A stretch of 42,129 nucleotides of DNA from a virus: IMG/VR virus record IMGVR_UViG_3300046474_000604, positions 1 to 42,129 of that record. One strand, 5' to 3'. A model generated the notes under the pieces. It worked only from the letters and a program-made list of their open reading frames with translations. It was not told the DNA's origin and made no database searches. The position numbers and the translations under genes were made by a program. Numbering within the stretch: the stretch's first letter is position 1; each line of letters opens with the position of its first letter. Positions 2,264 to 28,976 of this stretch are shown in pieces.

Positions 2264-2509
2264 TTATGGATGCCATCGATTAAGCAAACTATCTTGTCGA
2301 CCGCGCGCCTTATCTAACGCCCCCAGCACGTACAGGATGTCTACTCCAGCACGATTAATGTTGGCCAGGTAGTCAGCTCTCGGCATTCGAATATTCAGTT
2401 CGTAGTGACCTTGAGCGTTAACTCTAACTCCGCCTATAGTGGCTAGTGCTTGCTGGGTAAGGCCTAATCGACAGCGTTCTGACTTTAAGCGCGCACCCAA
2501 TGAGCCCAT
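2264..2509 (-). CDS. XRE-family (Cro/CI-type HTH) regulator
   Basis: Encodes 81 residues. Residues 4-45 form a helix-turn-helix of the XRE type (ARLKSERCRLGLTQQALA, then the recognition helix and a YELNIRMPRADYL segment), and the VDILYVLGA stretch after it is usual for small phage and prophage regulators. DNA binding is inferred from this fold. A GAGG ribosome site lies nine bases before the ATG. Its upstream region holds a perfect 18-base palindrome (2528-2545) and further inverted repeats (2583-2634), good candidates for its own operators. It has its own terminator, so it appears to be an independently regulated single gene placed between late genes. Confidence 0.8.
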   Translation of the reverse strand: MGSLGARLKSERCRLGLTQQALATIGGVRVNAQGHYELNIRMPRADYLANINRAGVDILYVLGALDKARGRQDSLLNRWHP

Positions 2510-2527
2510 GTCTATAGCCTCGGTCAG

Positions 2528-2545
2528 GCCCGCAAGATTGCGGGC
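2528..2545. promoter_or_regulatory. 18-base perfect palindrome upstream of XRE gene
   Basis: GCCCGCAA-GA-TTGCGGGC, perfect in both arms, 19 bases upstream of the XRE start codon. It may be a repressor operator, or fold in the mRNA leader as a 7-bp hairpin with a four-base loop directly before the ribosome site. Confidence 0.5.
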
Positions 2546-2582
2546 GCATGATGGCCTTAGAGTGGCACAATCAAAAAATTTC

Positions 2583-2634
2583 CGTTAGCTACCTTTACAC
2601 TAACGATACAAATAATTCTCAGGTCTTAGTGTAA
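2583..2634. promoter_or_regulatory. Inverted-repeat cluster, probable promoter/operator of XRE gene
   Basis: Two nested inverted repeats share a half-site: CGTTAG (2583-2588) with CTAACG (2600-2605), and TTACACTAA (2595-2603) with TTAGTGTAA (2626-2634). The area is AT-rich relative to its surroundings and lies 75-125 bases upstream of the XRE start. The right arm overlaps the end of the DUF1353 gene. Confidence 0.5.
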
Positions 2635-3095
2635 CTCCAATGGCCGCCCAATCGGACACCCAGGTAGAAGATCAGCGCCCGCCAGCGCGCAGTGCCGTCG
2701 CCCGTGGTCAGGGCTCGGTAATAAACGGCATCACATTCGAGCCGCGACAACTTGCCCGTGGTGTACAGCAAGTCGTGCAGGATCGACGCGCGCATGCCGT
2801 AGCCGACGAGTAGGCCGTACAGGGCCAGGGCGATGACCGCGACGGCCAGCAGCGACCAGCGAATCCACGGATGCGAGTCGACCAGCGTCCCGCCGCTCAG
2901 CGCAGTGATTGCGCACCACCGGCAGATCTCCCGCAGGATTCTGATCGATGCCAGGTCGCTGACGAACGTGTCTGGCACAACCAGCTCACCATGCACAGGA
3001 TCGTTGAAGGCCATGGCCTGGCGCATCTCCACGTCCCAGCGGCTGATGAAGCGGATATCGGGCTTTACGTCGAACTTGCCTACTGCTGTTGCCAT
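2619..3095 (-). CDS. DUF1353-family phage protein
   Basis: Encodes 158 residues (from MATAVGKF). The conserved DUF1353 signature is visible: DTFVSDLASI in the first third and HDLLYTTGKLSRLECDAVYYRAL near residue 115, with a hydrophobic segment between (residues 80-105) that may be a membrane segment. DUF1353 proteins are frequent next to phage tail genes; their role is not established. The ATG at 3095 is preferred to one six codons upstream because a GGAG ribosome site is correctly spaced before it. A terminator at 3112-3131 precedes the gene, as for several other late genes here. Confidence 0.75.
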   Translation of the reverse strand: MATAVGKFDVKPDIRFISRWDVEMRQAMAFNDPVHGELVVPDTFVSDLASIRILREICRWCAITALSGGTLVDSHPWIRWSLLAVAVIALALYGLLVGYGMRASILHDLLYTTGKLSRLECDAVYYRALTTGDGTARWRALIFYLGVRLGGHWSYTKT

Positions 3096-3111
3096 GCTTT
3101 TCTCCAGGCAC

Positions 3112-3131
3112 AAAAAAACCGCACAAGGCGG
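3112..3131 (-). terminator. Intrinsic terminator upstream of DUF1353 gene
   Basis: CCGC-cttgt-GCGG followed by seven T on the minus strand, located between the tail-assembly gene and the DUF1353 gene. The stem is only four base pairs, so it is probably weak. Confidence 0.65.
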
Positions 3132-3161
3132 CCGGGGTAGCTGAAATTTGTAGTCGATGGG

Positions 3162-3635
3162 TCAGTCGGGCAGCTCGAGCACGGGCAGCTCGAGCAGAAA
3201 CGCCTCGATTGTCGGCTGCTCGCGCTCACCAGCCAGAACCAGGGCGAGCTGCTGATAAGCGTAGGCCCAGACCAGGGAACGCCAGGCCCTGAAGGCAATG
3301 CCGTCATTCTGGAACTTCGGCACTGCTGGCTCTTCGGCATAGCTCACCGCAGTAGCGATGCTGTCGTAGCGGGCCGCGATTGCCGCGCCGTCGAGCTTGG
3401 CCTGCACAGCTTGCTCGTAGAGCTTGGTGATGGCGGCGGTGTCTGGGGCCGGCGAAGGTGGTAATTCCGGAGCGGCGGGCAGCTTCACCCACTGGCCCTG
3501 CCACTGGGCGACCTGGGCGCCGGTGAGCCTGGGCGGCGCTGTAGGCGTTGAGCTGGGCGGCATTGGCTGGCCGTCCTCTACCTCTATACTGCCCGAGTAC
3601 AGAGCGTTGTCACCCCACTGGTATACTAAGGTCAT
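3162..3635 (-). CDS. Putative tail fibre assembly protein
   Basis: Encodes 157 residues with a Pro/Ala-rich linker (residues 25-65) followed by a helical domain ending in a repeated LELP element. Its ATG overlaps the TGA of the tail-fibre gene by four bases (ATGA), so the two are translationally coupled. Small proteins in this position act as tail-fibre assembly chaperones in many phages; the assignment rests on position, size and the N-terminal beta-rich then helical pattern, not on a diagnostic motif. It is the last gene of the tail block before a terminator. Confidence 0.6.
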   Translation of the reverse strand: MTLVYQWGDNALYSGSIEVEDGQPMPPSSTPTAPPRLTGAQVAQWQGQWVKLPAAPELPPSPAPDTAAITKLYEQAVQAKLDGAAIAARYDSIATAVSYAEEPAVPKFQNDGIAFRAWRSLVWAYAYQQLALVLAGEREQPTIEAFLLELPVLELPD

Positions 3636-23975: not shown

Positions 23976-24296
23976 TCAGTCCCCTGTGTAATGAGTTCCG
24001 CCTGGGCCCAGGCGGTTGTTCTGTTCGTATTGCTGCTGGACGCCGCTGCCTCGGTCCGCCCGAGACATGTCCCGCTCAAGCAGCAAAATTCGCTCGGTCA
24101 AAAACCGAATTAGTGCAGGCATCTCTGTCGGCTCCACTGAACGACCATCGTCGGCGTAGACCCAGCCAAAACCACTGCAGCAAACGCAATCCAGTTCGTA
24201 GAAAAGGCCTTTCACAACACCGCGACCACGGCAGTCCGGGCAGTTGATCACGCGCCGGTAATGCTTCAGAAAGTCAGGGCCATGGCTCTTTTTCAT
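23976..24296 (-). CDS. Small zinc-binding phage protein (DnaJ-type CxxCxGxG)
   Basis: Encodes 106 residues. Two knuckles, CPDCRGRG (about residue 19) and CVCCSGFGW (about residue 37), match the CxxCxGxG zinc repeat of DnaJ and of several small phage proteins. The C-terminal half is charged and helical. It overlaps the recombinase stop (ATGA) and ends three bases before Q. The role is unknown; nin-region genes of this type often encode small nucleic-acid or protein adaptors. Confidence 0.7.
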   Translation of the reverse strand: MKKSHGPDFLKHYRRVINCPDCRGRGVVKGLFYELDCVCCSGFGWVYADDGRSVEPTEMPALIRFLTERILLLERDMSRADRGSGVQQQYEQNNRLGPGGTHYTGD

Positions 24297-25594
24297 GCTT
24301 TTGAAACCTCGCCATTAACAATGTTAGAAACTGCCTCGCAGGCCACGTCTTTCGCGGTCTGCGCTGGGTTATGTGATTCTTCGTATTGGGCGTCTGTCAG
24401 GTTGGGAATCGCGTTTAGGCCGCGCTCATCTAACCAGTTGTGCCACTTCTCCAAAGCCAGCAGACGCTGTGCCGTGGCCTGGGTGTTGATGTAGGTCGAG
24501 GCGATCTTGCCGAGCGAGTGGTTCAGCAGCATCTCGCCGATGTGCCCATCAATACCGAGGTCAGTCCAGGCGGTGCGGGCTACCTTGCGCAGGTCGTGGC
24601 TCGTCCACTCGCCCTTCCCTATCCGGGTGAACACGGCACTGGCCTGCCCCTCGCTGAGCGCCCGGCCACGGCGCGACGGGAACAGGTAGATGCCTTCGTA
24701 GCCCTGGGCCCGCTGGATTGCCCGGTAGCCCCGCAGCAGCGCCTGGGCCTGGGCGGTCAGTGGCAGACGATGCTCGGTGCGGGTCTTGGTGTGATCCGCC
24801 GGAATGAACCACTCGGCATCTGCCAGGGATATGTCCGACCAGCGCGCTTGCCGCGTCTCGCCGATGCGTGTGCCGTGGCAGAGCATCATCAGCGCCAGCA
24901 TGGCGTCGGCCGGGGCGCTGTCGAACATCCCGGCCAGCATCGGCACCACGTCGACCAGGTGCACGCCGCGCAGCCGGGCCGCCTTCGGAATGATCTTGGC
25001 CTTGGTGAAGTCCACGAACTTCAGCCCGGCCATGGGGTTGCCGTCGATAAGCCCGAGCTTATGGGCCTGGCGGAATGCGACGACCAGCAGACCGAACAAC
25101 TGCCGGACGTATGACAGCGACAGGACTTCCTGCGCGGGCCACATCAGCAGCTTGTCGAGTTCCGGCGCCGACACGTCACGAATCGGCAGGTCAGCCAGCC
25201 GAGGCTTGAGGTGGCAGGCAATCGCCGACTTGGCGCCGCTCTTGCGCTTGCCCGACAGGGAACGGTCCTTGGCCATCCGGTCACCGTACCAGTCCAGCAA
25301 CTGGCCGACCGTCGCGAGGCCGCCCAGGGCGACGGCGGCAGCGGGATCGCGCAGCAGGCGTTGACGCAGGGCGGGCAGCTCAGCCAACACGGCGGATGCA
25401 CCCAGCTCAGGGAATCGGGCGATCTGGGTCCAGGCCTTGCCCTTCACCAAATACCACGACCCTCGCTGCCGGTCCTGGCCGAAGCGCAGGTACAGCCCCG
25501 GGTGCCTCGGGTCGCGCAGGTCGTGCACGCCCAGGTCGGCGGCCTGACGGCGGATCTCCGCGTCACTGAACTTTACCGCCCGGGTCTTGCTCAT
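24293..25594 (-). CDS. Second tyrosine recombinase, in the nin-like region
   Basis: Encodes 433 residues. The full catalytic set is present: Arg243 (CHGTRIGE), Lys in HTKTRTEH, His333-x-x-Arg336 (SHDLRK), His359 (LLNHSLG) and Tyr368 (STYINT). The N-terminal part resembles P4/XerC-like integrases with an arm-binding domain (about 1-90) and a core-binding domain (about 95-190). The ATG at 25594 overlaps the VRR-NUC stop (ATGA); a longer frame upstream is only a shadow of VRR-NUC. Since a lambda-like integrase exists at 41026, this enzyme may resolve replication products or serve a second recombination role rather than integration; that is inference. Confidence 0.85.
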
Positions 25595-26016
25595 GCTGCC
25601 ACCGTCTTCGGCAGCCGCAGGTATGCCCGCAGCGCTTCCATCGCGTCGAAGTGCCCACGACAAACGACAGCCAAATAGCCCTGGCCATTCAGCGCCTGGA
25701 TGAAAGCGTGCTGGTTCGCCGACACTTCCGCATCGTTGGGCGGCGTGGCCTTGAATTCGATGTACAGACCGAAATACCCGCCACGGGCCATGGGCAAAAT
25801 CAGGTCCGGCACCCCGGCCTTCACCCCCTGCTCTTTCAGCTTGATAGCCACAAGCTTGTGCCGGTGCCCTCCGTTGGGGACGTGGAAGATCAGGCGATGC
25901 ACGTCGGGGTAGCGCAGTTCGATCTCGCGCATCAGGGCGGCCTGCTCCAGGCCCTCGCGATCCACCGGCTTGGCACGCGCGGTTTTCGGTGCCCAGGTCT
26001 TGAGCGGCGGCGTCAT
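25591..26016 (-). CDS. VRR-NUC domain nuclease
   Basis: Encodes 141 residues. The VRR-NUC pattern is clear: HVPNGG near residue 45, GVKAGVPDLIL with the catalytic-type Asp near 70, YIEFKA with Glu-x-Lys near 87, and SANQHAFIQAL with the conserved Gln. Such stand-alone nucleases cut branched or flap DNA and are frequent in phage nin-like regions, where they probably process replication or recombination intermediates. Overlaps both neighbours by four bases, which ties it to the DUF1364 gene and the recombinase. Confidence 0.85.
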   Translation of the reverse strand: MTPPLKTWAPKTARAKPVDREGLEQAALMREIELRYPDVHRLIFHVPNGGHRHKLVAIKLKEQGVKAGVPDLILPMARGGYFGLYIEFKATPPNDAEVSANQHAFIQALNGQGYLAVVCRGHFDAMEALRAYLRLPKTVAA

Positions 26017-26315
26017 GCTGCAATCACCCGCTCGCCCACCAGGATATCGATGGTTCGCACCATGCCCTCAAGATGCATGACCCTGAGTTCGTCGCTGCTG
26101 AACTCAGTCTTGCGTCGGCCGTCGATGGCGTCGTGACAGGAGCCGCACGCCCAGGCGCCCTGCAGGTCGTTCGGCTTGAGGCCGACACCACAGCGGGTGC
26201 CGGACATGCGGAAATGCGCCAGCACGGTGGTTTCGGGGTTGCCGTTGCAGACGCCCGGCACGCGGACTTGGCATTCACGGCCACGGGCTGCCCTGGTGAG
26301 TTTCGTCTGCCTCAT
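26013..26315 (-). CDS. DUF1364-family putative nuclease
   Basis: Encodes 100 residues: MRQTKLTRAARGRECQVRVPGVCNG..., then AHFRMSG, KPNDLQGAWACGSCHDAIDGR. The Cys pairs and the C-x2-C-HD core are the DUF1364 pattern, thought to be an HNH-like nuclease fold found in lambdoid nin regions. It probably processes DNA junctions together with the neighbouring VRR-NUC protein. Overlaps NinX and VRR-NUC genes by four bases each. Confidence 0.85.
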   Translation of the reverse strand: MRQTKLTRAARGRECQVRVPGVCNGNPETTVLAHFRMSGTRCGVGLKPNDLQGAWACGSCHDAIDGRRKTEFSSDELRVMHLEGMVRTIDILVGERVIAA

Positions 26316-26710
26316 GACAGCAGGACCTGTGGCACTTGGACCAGGCCGCCGAGCTTAGCGGCTACAAGAGACCGGCATGCCGCCACAAGTGGTTTGCTTG
26401 AATCAAACCCTTTGCCAACGGCACTCGTCCAAGGGCAGTTGGCGGTCCATGCACCGAGATATGTCCCTGCTTCGTCTGGCGATGCTAGGTCGATAACATG
26501 CTTTTCGATCAAGGGTCCCCCTTGAGCCCAGTCCGTCGATGGCGAGTACTTGGCCTGGGTATGAACCTGGTCATAGCGGATTCGCCACCCATTGCCATAG
26601 GCAGGGGGAGCGAGAGCTACCTTCACACCTTCAACCAATGCAACAGCCCAATCCAGGCCAGGCCCCTCAAGATCGCGGATGTGACAAGTAACCAATATCA
26701 GGTCATTCAT
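26312..26710 (-). CDS. ninX: NinX-like protein (DUF2591)
   Basis: Encodes 132 residues starting MNDLILVTCHIRDLEGPGLDWAVALVEG, the typical start of NinX/DUF2591 proteins. The middle has YSPSTDWAQGGPLIEKH, where the DWAQGGP(L/I)I segment is the conserved core. The ATG at 26710 overlaps the P-like stop (ATGA); a longer frame would only shadow that gene. NinX is conserved in lambdoid early regions; its function is not established. Confidence 0.85.
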   Translation of the reverse strand: MNDLILVTCHIRDLEGPGLDWAVALVEGVKVALAPPAYGNGWRIRYDQVHTQAKYSPSTDWAQGGPLIEKHVIDLASPDEAGTYLGAWTANCPWTSAVGKGFDSSKPLVAACRSLVAAKLGGLVQVPQVLLS

Positions 26711-27387
26711 TGGGCGCTCCCCGAGCGTTTGGCTCGCAATTCTTTCAATGCGTTGTTGCCGACTTCCGGCGCACTTTTCGATGACGGCGCCGCAATCTCG
26801 GCGAATGGGATGGGGCCAAGGTCTTCGCCGCGCCATACGAGGCAGGCCTGAGCCTGATAACGCTTCCCGAAGCTGGCCAAGCCGAGTTCACGGCTGAGCA
26901 GTGGGAGGCTGTGAAAGCCGGCGGCGGCAGTCGCGTGGTACACGGCAGGGTGAAACCATTTCTCCCGGCCTCGCATCGCTGGGTGGCAGTTGCGCATGGC
27001 CTGCTCATAGGCCGTCTCGACGCTGGGCAGGCCGACCATTTCAGGCGTCGGCATGCACATGCCGATGAACTTGCCGGGGCTCGGGATAAAATCGGTCTCT
27101 TCCGCGCGGCACCGGGCCAGGCCCATATCGATCTGCTCTTGCGTGCAGACGCCGCCCTCGAAAAGAGCTCGGACCCAAACCGCCTTAGCAGCCTGATAGG
27201 CCGCTTTGTCGGGCCACGCCTGCCGCCAGGCGGTGCGAATGGTGCGCAGCTCCCGGAACAGTTCGTTGATGATCTTTCCGACCACCTCGGATTGATCCTG
27301 CTGGGCCAGCTCGCCTGCCTCATGGGCCAAGAGACCAGACCGAACAACGGATACCGCCGACTGGGCGATGCTCGATACGGCTCTCAT
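26707..27387 (-). CDS. P: Replication protein P-like (helicase loader)
   Basis: Encodes 226 residues. The middle shows the lambda P-like pattern: NELFRELRTIRTAWRQAWPD, then VWVRALFEGGVCTQEQIDMGLARCR, and PSPGKFIGMCMP. P recruits the host DnaB helicase to the initiator-bound origin. The ATG at 27387 overlaps the O-like stop (ATGA), preferred over an ATG seven codons upstream inside the O-like gene. It follows the initiator gene directly, the lambda O-P order. Confidence 0.85.
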   Translation of the reverse strand: MRAVSSIAQSAVSVVRSGLLAHEAGELAQQDQSEVVGKIINELFRELRTIRTAWRQAWPDKAAYQAAKAVWVRALFEGGVCTQEQIDMGLARCRAEETDFIPSPGKFIGMCMPTPEMVGLPSVETAYEQAMRNCHPAMRGREKWFHPAVYHATAAAGFHSLPLLSRELGLASFGKRYQAQACLVWRGEDLGPIPFAEIAAPSSKSAPEVGNNALKELRAKRSGSAQ

Positions 27388-28178
27388 TTCGGCACCTGCC
27401 GCATCCAATCGGTGCTGTCGTCTTCGATTTCGTCAGGGCCAGTCCCGGACACAGCAGTCGCGGCGCGCTCACGAACGAACCAGGACACCAGGCGGCGACA
27501 CCAGCCAGCCGCCGAATCCACGGTGTCAGGCTTGGCGGCGAAGAAACCCATGAACGATTTCACGACCGAGTCAGGGATTTCGGTTGGCTTGACCCCGGCG
27601 ATCTGGGCCTGGGCGATCAGGTAACGGCTGTTCGGCGACCACTCAGCGAACATGGCGTACCGCTGGCGGTTGTCCAGATCATCGATGGCCTGCTGGTCCT
27701 GTCGGCCGATCAAGTCCGAACCCTCGCGCGGCTGCTGCTCTTCGGTTCCTTGATGGTTTAATGGTGTATTGGGTGCAGCTGCTGCACCCCGTTCTGCGTT
27801 TTCCTGCACCCCGTTCGGTTGTGAGCTGCACCCCGTGCGGTCATCTGCACCCCGATCTTTACGGGGTGCAGCATTTGCACCCCGCTTTAGCTGAAGGTCA
27901 TACACCACGGGGCGGCGGTCGCGGCGGTCGATGTAGGCAGCGGCGATTGCCTGATTGCCCTCTGCGATCCAACCGGCCTTCTCCAGTTCATCCAACTTCA
28001 GGCGGACTGTGCGCTCTGAAAGCCCTGTCTGTTTCGAGATAGTCGCCGCAGAAGGAAAGGCGCCACGGCCTTCAGGCCCGGCATAGTTGGCCATGCACAG
28101 CAAGACGTGCCGCGCGGCGGGGTTATCCAGGGAGGACGTCGGGATATCCATAGCCCAGGTCATTGCTTGAACGCTCAC
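27384..28178 (-). CDS. Replication initiator O-like, with HTH and DnaT-like domains
   Basis: Encodes 264 residues. The N-terminus (about 1-90) is a winged-helix DNA-binding domain (AATISKQTGLSERTVRLKLDELEKAGWI). Residues about 98-145 are a low-complexity linker coded by the iteron array. The C-terminus (about 180-245) is DnaT-like (FAEWSPNSRYLIAQAQIAG...SFMGFFAAKPD). The layout of DNA-binding domain, origin-bearing linker and P/DnaB-interacting domain is that of lambda O. The GTG start overlaps the Rha stop (GTGA). It should bind its own gene's iterons and load helicase with the P-like protein. Confidence 0.85.
   Translation of the reverse strand: MSVQAMTWAMDIPTSSLDNPAARHVLLCMANYAGPEGRGAFPSAATISKQTGLSERTVRLKLDELEKAGWIAEGNQAIAAAYIDRRDRRPVVYDLQLKRGANAAPRKDRGADDRTGCSSQPNGVQENAERGAAAAPNTPLNHQGTEEQQPREGSDLIGRQDQQAIDDLDNRQRYAMFAEWSPNSRYLIAQAQIAGVKPTEIPDSVVKSFMGFFAAKPDTVDSAAGWCRRLVSWFVRERAATAVSGTGPDEIEDDSTDWMRQVPK
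27771..27884. other. Replication origin: iteron array inside the initiator gene
   Basis: Seven copies of CTGCACCCCG or its complement: 27771 (reverse, 8 of 10), 27782, 27804, 27826, 27845, 27862 (reverse) and 27875 (TTGCACCCCG). The first three direct copies are spaced exactly 22 bases. The copies fall in all three reading frames of the host gene, so DNA-level selection is implied. A less GC-rich stretch (27748-27770) adjoins the array on the left and may be the unwinding element. Confidence 0.85.
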
Positions 28179-28924
28179 TGCGCAGCTCCAATGTTCTTTT
28201 CAGCCAAGCACGCAAGGCCTTTCGGGGTTACGAGGGGTTGAAACGCAGCGCGTTCGATACCGGTTTCGGTGTCGGGCTTGAGTGCGGTCACTTTGTGTTT
28301 CAGGTAGCCGGAGCGAATGCGCGGCTGCATGGCGATCCAGCGTGTGGACCCGCCACGGCGGTAAAGCCAGCGGTTGGCCTGCATCCAGTCAAAAAGTTTG
28401 GATGGGGAAATGCCCAGGTGCTTCGCAGCGTCGGTAATGCAGATGGCGCCCTCGGCGGCGGCCAGACGTTGAATCGCTGCAACCTTGGGCGCCTGCCTGT
28501 CGATAACCTCCTGCAGTTGCCTGCTGTGCTCGACTTGATCGGCGGCCAGGCGCAGTGCCTGGGCAAAGTCGGCGGGAATCTGGACGTGGCCGATGATCCG
28601 CGCTTCAAGCTCACGCCAACGTCGGATCACCTTCATGCGCAACTCGGCGCTGTAACCGGTCAGCAGGCAGTCGGTGTGCTCGCGGTCGAGCAGATACTGG
28701 ACCTGCTCACGGTTGCGTCCGTCGAGATAGATATCCTCAAATTTGAGGGCATCGGCTTTGAGGTCTTTCAGCATCACAACAATGTCACGCTTGACGTTGT
28801 CGTGGCGCTTGCCGGTCAGGTCTGCGATTTCCTTGGACGACATGAGCTGACGTGTCAGGTTCTGCGACAAGGCAAAATCTGACGAATCAGGGCGGGGATT
28901 GTGTGGGGAGGTTGTCGCGTGCAT
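28175..28924 (-). CDS. Rha-family regulator with KilAC (antirepressor) domain
   Basis: Encodes 249 residues. Residues about 25-110 match the Rha phage regulatory domain (MSSKEIADLTGKRHDNVKRDIV, EYLL-type segment QVQYLLDREHTDCLLTGY). Residues about 150-245 match the KilAC/ANT domain (KLFDWMQANRWLYRRGG, ending in a VTPKGLACLAE segment). Such proteins act as antirepressors or early regulators. The ATG at 28924 has a GAGG ribosome site; longer starts lack one. It lies between the CII-like gene and the initiator. Confidence 0.85.
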   Translation of the reverse strand: MHATTSPHNPRPDSSDFALSQNLTRQLMSSKEIADLTGKRHDNVKRDIVVMLKDLKADALKFEDIYLDGRNREQVQYLLDREHTDCLLTGYSAELRMKVIRRWRELEARIIGHVQIPADFAQALRLAADQVEHSRQLQEVIDRQAPKVAAIQRLAAAEGAICITDAAKHLGISPSKLFDWMQANRWLYRRGGSTRWIAMQPRIRSGYLKHKVTALKPDTETGIERAAFQPLVTPKGLACLAEKNIGAAQ

Positions 28925-28951
28925 AATCGGCCTCACAAGTGTTGTTGAAGA

Positions 28952-28976
28952 AGCCGGTCTAGCCACCGGCTTTTTT
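28952..28976 (+). terminator. Hairpin with T-run (plus sense) between CII-like and Rha genes
   Basis: AGCCGGT-ctagcc-ACCGGCT followed by TTTTTT on the plus strand. On the minus strand it is followed only by TCTTC, so as a terminator it would mainly stop rightward (antisense) transcription; it may also be a leaky barrier for the early operon. Confidence 0.65.

Follow-up and report, generated by a model that had tools for sequence, protein, structure and literature searches.

The initiator gene and its neighbourhood

The DNA analysed here (in the following the window, i.e. the whole stretch of 42,129 bases) is an IMG/VR virus record and derives from a Pseudomonas-type temperate phage. The genes at the centre of this work lie on its minus strand:

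28175-28966, minus strand: Rha + KilAC (ANT) antirepressor gene; its end overlaps the start of the initiator gene by 4 bases
27384..28178, minus strand: O-like replication initiator gene (264 aa, GTG start)
26707..27408, minus strand: lambda-P-like helicase loader gene; it overlaps the end of the initiator gene, and its true start is possibly further in

Residues 1-261 of the initiator matched the profile of phrog_1032, 'replication initiation protein' (E 2.5e-66), and the protein also matched the O-like family phrog_678 (E 5.6e-21). With a full-length match to phrog_1032 and an HTH_36 winged helix (Pfam, E 1.8e-13), it belongs to the HTH_36 replication initiators of phrog_1032; its C-terminal part matched DnaT (PF17948), and NCBIfam returned no family for the proteins of the window. 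In a structure model based on 26 aligned sequences (mean pLDDT 68.8) the N-terminal and C-terminal domains were predicted with confidence, residues 101-151 between them being disordered. The recognition helix of the N-terminal winged helix is predicted at about residues 55-68. The best structural matches of the C-terminal domain were the ssDNA-binding domains of DnaT (4ou6 and 6aeq, TM 0.73-0.79 by target), which are weak by E-value (about 0.004-0.02). This similarity of the model suggests that the C-terminal domain holds the opened strand.

The gene adjoining the initiator gene, as in a lambda-type origin region, encodes a P-type helicase loader. Its product matched PF06992 (E 2.7e-30) as well as phrog_109 and is 30% identical to lambda P (E 4e-13). 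Upstream of the initiator gene there are genes for the Rha/KilAC antirepressor and for a CII-like regulator, and NinX and YbcO genes are located downstream of the replication genes. The gene context is that of a lambdoid early region. A tyrosine integrase gene (PF00589, 576 aa, 24293-26023, minus strand) is found downstream of the replication and nin-type genes. A Rha-family gene is also present ahead of the initiator region in a P. aeruginosa element (L440).

A repeat array within the initiator gene

Within the initiator gene, the core GGGTGCA occurs seven times between 27769 and 27884, five times in direct and twice in inverted orientation. In the direction of the gene the array and the element that follows it are composed of:

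27876..27884, minus strand: site 1, forward half, CGGGGTGCA
27862..27871, plus strand: site 1, inverted half, CTGCACCCCG on the gene strand; palindrome with 27876-27884 (9-bp arms, 5-bp gap)
27845..27854, minus strand: site 2, CGGGGTGCAG
27826..27835, minus strand: site 3, CGGGGTGCAG, 19 bp from site 2
27804..27813, minus strand: site 4, CGGGGTGCAG, 22 bp from site 3
27782..27791, minus strand: site 5, forward half, CGGGGTGCAG, 22 bp from site 4
27769..27778, plus strand: site 5, inverted half, CTGCACCCAA on the gene strand; 19-bp palindrome with the forward half
27737..27769, minus strand: candidate unwinding element, three imperfect 11-bp repeats ATACACCATTA / AACCATCAAGG / AACCGAAGAGC

Exact copies of CTGCACCCCG start at 27782, 27804, 27826 and 27845 on the plus strand, and one more lies at 27862-27871 on the minus strand. 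The copy at 27875 (TTGCACCCCG) deviates from CTGCACCCCG by one mismatch and the copy at 27769-27778 on the minus strand (CTGCACCCAA) by two. Read along the gene, the arrangement is CGGGGTGCA(5)TGCACCCCG - CGGGGTGCA - CGGGGTGCA - CGGGGTGCA - CGGGGTGCA(5)TGCACCCAA, where the distances between successive forward starts are 30, 19, 22 and 22 bp and an inverted pair with a 5-bp gap recurs at both ends (27862-27884, with 9-bp arms, and 27769-27791). The array DNA itself is GC-rich. Together with the 11-mers it encodes the disordered linker (residues 101-151) and is thus embedded between the two domains of an initiator-family gene, as is the case in lambda-type origins.

A preliminary description of this DNA had listed seven iterons, five direct and two inverted, in the linker-coding part of an O-like gene; number and orientations are correct for the core, and the location agrees with the phrog_678 and phrog_1032 matches and with the disorder of residues 101-151. 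The iteron given there applies in its 7-bp core to all seven copies, but the outermost copy on each side is not a full 10-mer. The strict 22-base spacing of three iterons is found at 27782, 27804 and 27826, and the 19-base palindrome of the left pair at 27771-27789. Copies in all three reading frames had also been reported, and the five on the gene strand, at offsets 296, 326, 345, 367 and 389, indeed span the three frames. Furthermore, 27845-27871 had been regarded as a second inverted pair. Its 10-bp arms (27845-27854 and 27862-27871) exist, but they belong to two different sites, and since their spacing varies among relatives we reject this pair as a functional unit.

Conservation of the repeats as DNA

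To what extent the array could arise from the protein sequence was assessed by synonymous recoding, in which the protein and its own codons were retained. In 5,000 trials 0.34 core copies were obtained on average and three at most, as compared to the seven observed. In addition, IMG/VR was scanned blindly for the 22-bp repeat pair CGGGGTGCA-N13-CGGGGTGCA, with no protein information used. At least 120 loci carry this pair according to the DNA scan alone and, among the matches listed, 116 of 120 have a gene for a homologue of the window's initiator, with identities as low as about 40%; this count includes two loci (L087 and L123) at which the gene was found on inspection. The repeat pair was also present in 34 of 300 genomes of Pseudomonas species, while a control with the reversed pattern gave 0.

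In a set of relatives chosen by protein only, mainly by N-terminal patterns, all 99 genes have kept 5-7 copies. Among 75 non-redundant members, the same codon is used at shared amino acids with a frequency of 0.92 in the array (codons 99-137) and of 0.87 just downstream of it (codons 138-153), as compared to 0.50 in the DNA-binding domain (codons 2-95). The constrained region therefore runs beyond the array, to about 27726. When 84 arrays were stacked, sites that had not been used for selection were invariant or nearly so at most positions, third codon positions included, and even the imperfect copy at the left end is kept in that form (TGCACCCAAT in 98-99% of the arrays). Judged from these comparisons, the repeats are selected as DNA, a property they share with lambda-type origins and which is apparent both from the frozen codons and from the recoding trials. 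The preliminary description had deduced such selection from the use of three frames; this is borne out by the frozen synonymous codons and by the fact that the DNA motif by itself sufficed to recover homologues.

These data also bear on the idea that the array merely results from a linker protein sequence that is repetitive and of low complexity. In line with this, recurring RGA and NGV motifs are present in the linker, which is disordered. However, the copies are distributed over three frames and the peptides they encode differ, the third positions of synonymous codons are frozen, and none of the 5,000 recodings reproduced the copies. A coding repeat thus has a negligible probability and is rejected, as is chance.

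An element of low stability next to the array

Directly after the array the identity at a lag of 11 bases amounts to 0.485, compared to 0.24 elsewhere in genes (138 genes). The least stable 40-mer of the initiator gene, 27735-27774, coincides with this periodic stretch; its GC content is about 0.47 and it ranks at about the 91st percentile of the window. Thus, an easily melted region is located beside the iterons as in lambda-type origins, although it is milder than the AT tract of lambda. Cleaner tandem 11-mers are found in distant members of the family, e.g. GAACCGTCCTT in Arthrobacter phages. The 11-bp-periodic element of low stability is likely an unwinding element.

Iteron arrays of plasmids often titrate the initiator, and for this reason it has to be considered that the array serves incompatibility or copy control by handcuffing, the true origin of the phage being located at another place. 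Against this, the conserved unwinding-like element directly adjoins the array, and there is no second repeat cluster in the 42,129-base window; we regard handcuffing without origin function as very improbable. The GC skew shows no switch across the window and is uninformative for mapping the origin.

Correlation between residue 60 and an iteron base

Relatives of the initiator hold GGGGTG constant in their repeats and vary the bases that follow (GGGGTGCA, GGGGTGTCA, GGGGTGACA, GGGGTGAA). Of all protein positions, residue 60 in the predicted recognition helix shares the most mutual information with the repeat class; columns 99-104 had to be left out of this comparison because the repeats themselves encode them. 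In the final non-redundant set, all 18 classifiable genes that encode arginine at position 60 have C as the second base following GGGGTG, whereas other residues are accompanied by A in 120 of 122 cases with A or C at this base. Four more genes without R60 have G or T, and twenty genes were unclassifiable in this tally. The two exceptions are L247, whose group is GC-rich and has reversed repeats, and a distant Bradyrhizobium phage, L390. The usual contact between arginine and guanine is in agreement with an arginine facing a C:G pair. The repeat sequence tracks the recognition helix, as would be expected if the initiator binds the repeats.

The Arthrobacter phages illustrate the correlation on a small scale. 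Polka, Kepler, Eesa, Brynnie, PhluffyCoco and Cupello combine R60 with GTGNC, and Andrew, Abidatro, Renna12 and Kuleana (N60) as well as Leona (S60) have GTGNA; three of the R60/N60 pairs are 82-84% identical in the domain. The best tree contains seven R60 changes, of which well-supported branches retain only one independent pair, the domain of 80-95 residues giving weak tree support. A tree of the Arthrobacter C-terminal domains has three R60 changes and is also weakly supported. Given these weak trees with a single supported pair, the correlation deduced from the alignments could rest on few events, and shared ancestry may be a partial cause. If the residue-60 code is true, an R60 version of the window's protein, which itself has L60, would match GGGGTGNCA and not GGGGTGCA.

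In a Thermobispora plasmid (L439, gene at 1501), E60 is combined with GGGGTGCGA. From this single case a third letter of the code, glutamate with G at +2, appears possible. In a group of initiators (L236, L237, L239, L240, L242 and L247) the helix reads SERAVRN, the linker contains CACCCCGGCA repeats, and GGGGTG is on the opposite strand; as aligned, this group departs from the rule.

The changes in the repeats are also informative with respect to an element acting at the level of RNA, in which the two inverted pairs would form hairpins in the mRNA. Both palindromes are perfect and conserved, but the inner copies, which are strictly conserved, are repeated directly and unable to pair with each other, and the base changes follow the recognition helix of the protein. 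We therefore hold an RNA element to be most improbable.

Exchange of modules and plasmid relatives

Compared with the window, L012 has a DNA identity of 0.65 in the N-terminal and 0.96 in the C-terminal part of the gene, while L018 shows 0.91 and 0.51, respectively. Relatives show a break in identity at the right end of the putative origin. Phages of the JBD68 type combine the N-terminal domain and array seen here with a different C-terminal domain and have a DnaC-like loader. Judging from this break and these combinations, the N-terminal domain and the putative origin appear to form a single cassette for specificity.

The array also occurs outside of phages. The Kineococcus plasmid pKRAD01 contains eight copies of CGGGGTGCA in a homologous gene with S60. 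In pCQ3 and a plasmid of Rhodococcus the layouts are related, the repeats being different ones. In a plasmid, a gene of this kind is the natural candidate for the initiator, which favours origin function. We consider it somewhat more probable than the contrary that there is a phage and plasmid initiator family spanning phyla, in which winged helix and linker-encoded origin form a portable cassette that recombines as a unit onto different modules of C-terminal domain and helicase loader (lambda-P, DnaC-like), residue 60 reading the +2 base (Arg a C:G pair, other residues A:T and perhaps Glu G:C).

Proposed function and mechanism

Repeats bound by a winged helix could also be operators for transcriptional control by the initiator or by another regulator of the phage, there being no origin at this place; the CII-like and Ant/Rha regulator genes upstream would be in line with this. 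However, the sites are located about 300-410 nt inside the gene, a search for a promoter-like site near the repeats found none, a conserved 11-bp element of low stability lies beside them, and the same layout is kept in plasmid relatives. Operators in place of an origin are thus very unlikely, if slightly less so than the other alternatives; autoregulation may exist in addition to origin function.

We consider it highly probable that 27726-27884 is a phage replication origin located in the part of the gene encoding the unstructured linker of its own initiator, which would be bound by the N-terminal winged helix and at which the lambda-P homologue would load DnaB. Initiator protomers would bind the CGGGGTGCA sites via the N-terminal winged helix. 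The five sites would comprise two outer ones, each a perfect inverted pair with a 5-bp gap, and three inner ones that act as single strong half-sites, mostly 22 bp, i.e. two helical turns, apart. The resulting initiator-DNA complex would strain and open the adjoining element of 11-bp repeats. The DnaT-like C-terminal domain might then hold the opened strand and/or contact the lambda-P homologue, which would deliver the host DnaB for early theta replication. In this scheme we infer binding, stoichiometry, opening, DnaB loading and origin activity from the sequence.

To our knowledge, the origins of most temperate phages are unmapped. If the assignment holds, origins can be predicted with base precision from one DNA signature, both in hundreds of phages and prophages and in some plasmids of actinobacteria. 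Since the origin sits in the gene of its own initiator, every sequence contains both partners, and the co-evolution of their specificity should therefore be readable and testable by single-residue and single-base swaps. The array would also mark a border at which replication modules of phages are repeatedly exchanged, and mini-replicons for hosts with few vectors could be built from predicted origins.

Comparison with known systems

In lambda, four iterons bound by O dimers lie inside gene O next to a tract of low stability, with P downstream (PMC7466680, PMC8508860). The window resembles ori-lambda and its P22 and Stx-phage versions in that iterons followed by a region of lower stability are contained in the initiator gene, after the part for the N-terminal DNA-binding domain, and that the next gene is a homologous P gene. 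In contrast, the lambda iteron is of the CCCTCAAAACGAGGG type and unrelated to that of the window, whose flanks are GC-rich, where 11-bp repeats take the place of the long AT tract, and whose initiator has a DnaT-like C-terminal domain unlike that of lambda O. The view of the preliminary description, an oriLambda design with an unrelated iteron, is supported on these counts, and the P-like gene it mentions is a lambda-P homologue by its PF06992 match.

No pairwise similarity between the window's initiator and lambda O was detected by blastp or by profile/HMM comparison. Membership in the narrow lambda O family (phrog_277) was rejected on the negative blastp and profile comparisons, phrog_1032 being the best family. 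The only PHROG families common to both proteins are phrog_678, 391 and 345, and in view of these a remote relation of the two sequences is likely.

Closer counterparts are gp54 of Pseudomonas phage JBD68 and gp44 of Arthrobacter phage Polka (phrog_1032 / phrog_678), which have the same N-terminal domain and embedded layout but differ from the window in the C-terminal domain and, along with residue 60, in the tail of the iteron. In JBD68 the neighbouring gene encodes a DnaC-like loader (phrog_50) instead of a lambda-P homologue, and in a closely related P. aeruginosa element a DnaB-type helicase gene follows the loader. The records of JBD68 and Polka carry no origin annotation. Among plasmids, pKRAD01, the Thermobispora ZC4 plasmid and pCQ3 combine an HTH initiator, a similar array within its gene and adjacent 11-mers of the GAACCGTCC type. 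The rep1-type central origins of Streptomyces may be further counterparts; that of pSLA2 is a 'phage-like origin inside rep1'. The RepA proteins of pFP1, pFP11 and pWTY27 bind their own iterons (PMC3583192).

The literature covered, with most subscription papers outside its scope, contains no account of this array or of the residue-60 rule, and a text search for the iteron string gave no phage-origin paper among the matches listed. Thus, the origin design is known from lambda, while the iteron family and the residue-base rule appear undescribed.

Some distant relatives carry other repeats. In L343 (gene 2501-3502) and L333 (gene 257-1165) the linker contains many copies of GCAGTCCACTGCACCCC or AGTCCACTTCACCCCAT, iterons that are longer and different, yet in the same linker position. 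In Pseudanabaena phage Pam5 (L388), an unannotated ORF from 1501 onward is a relative of the initiator with GGGGTCAGAATGTGACCCC repeats in its linker; the Pam5 record has a gene gap where this ORF is located.
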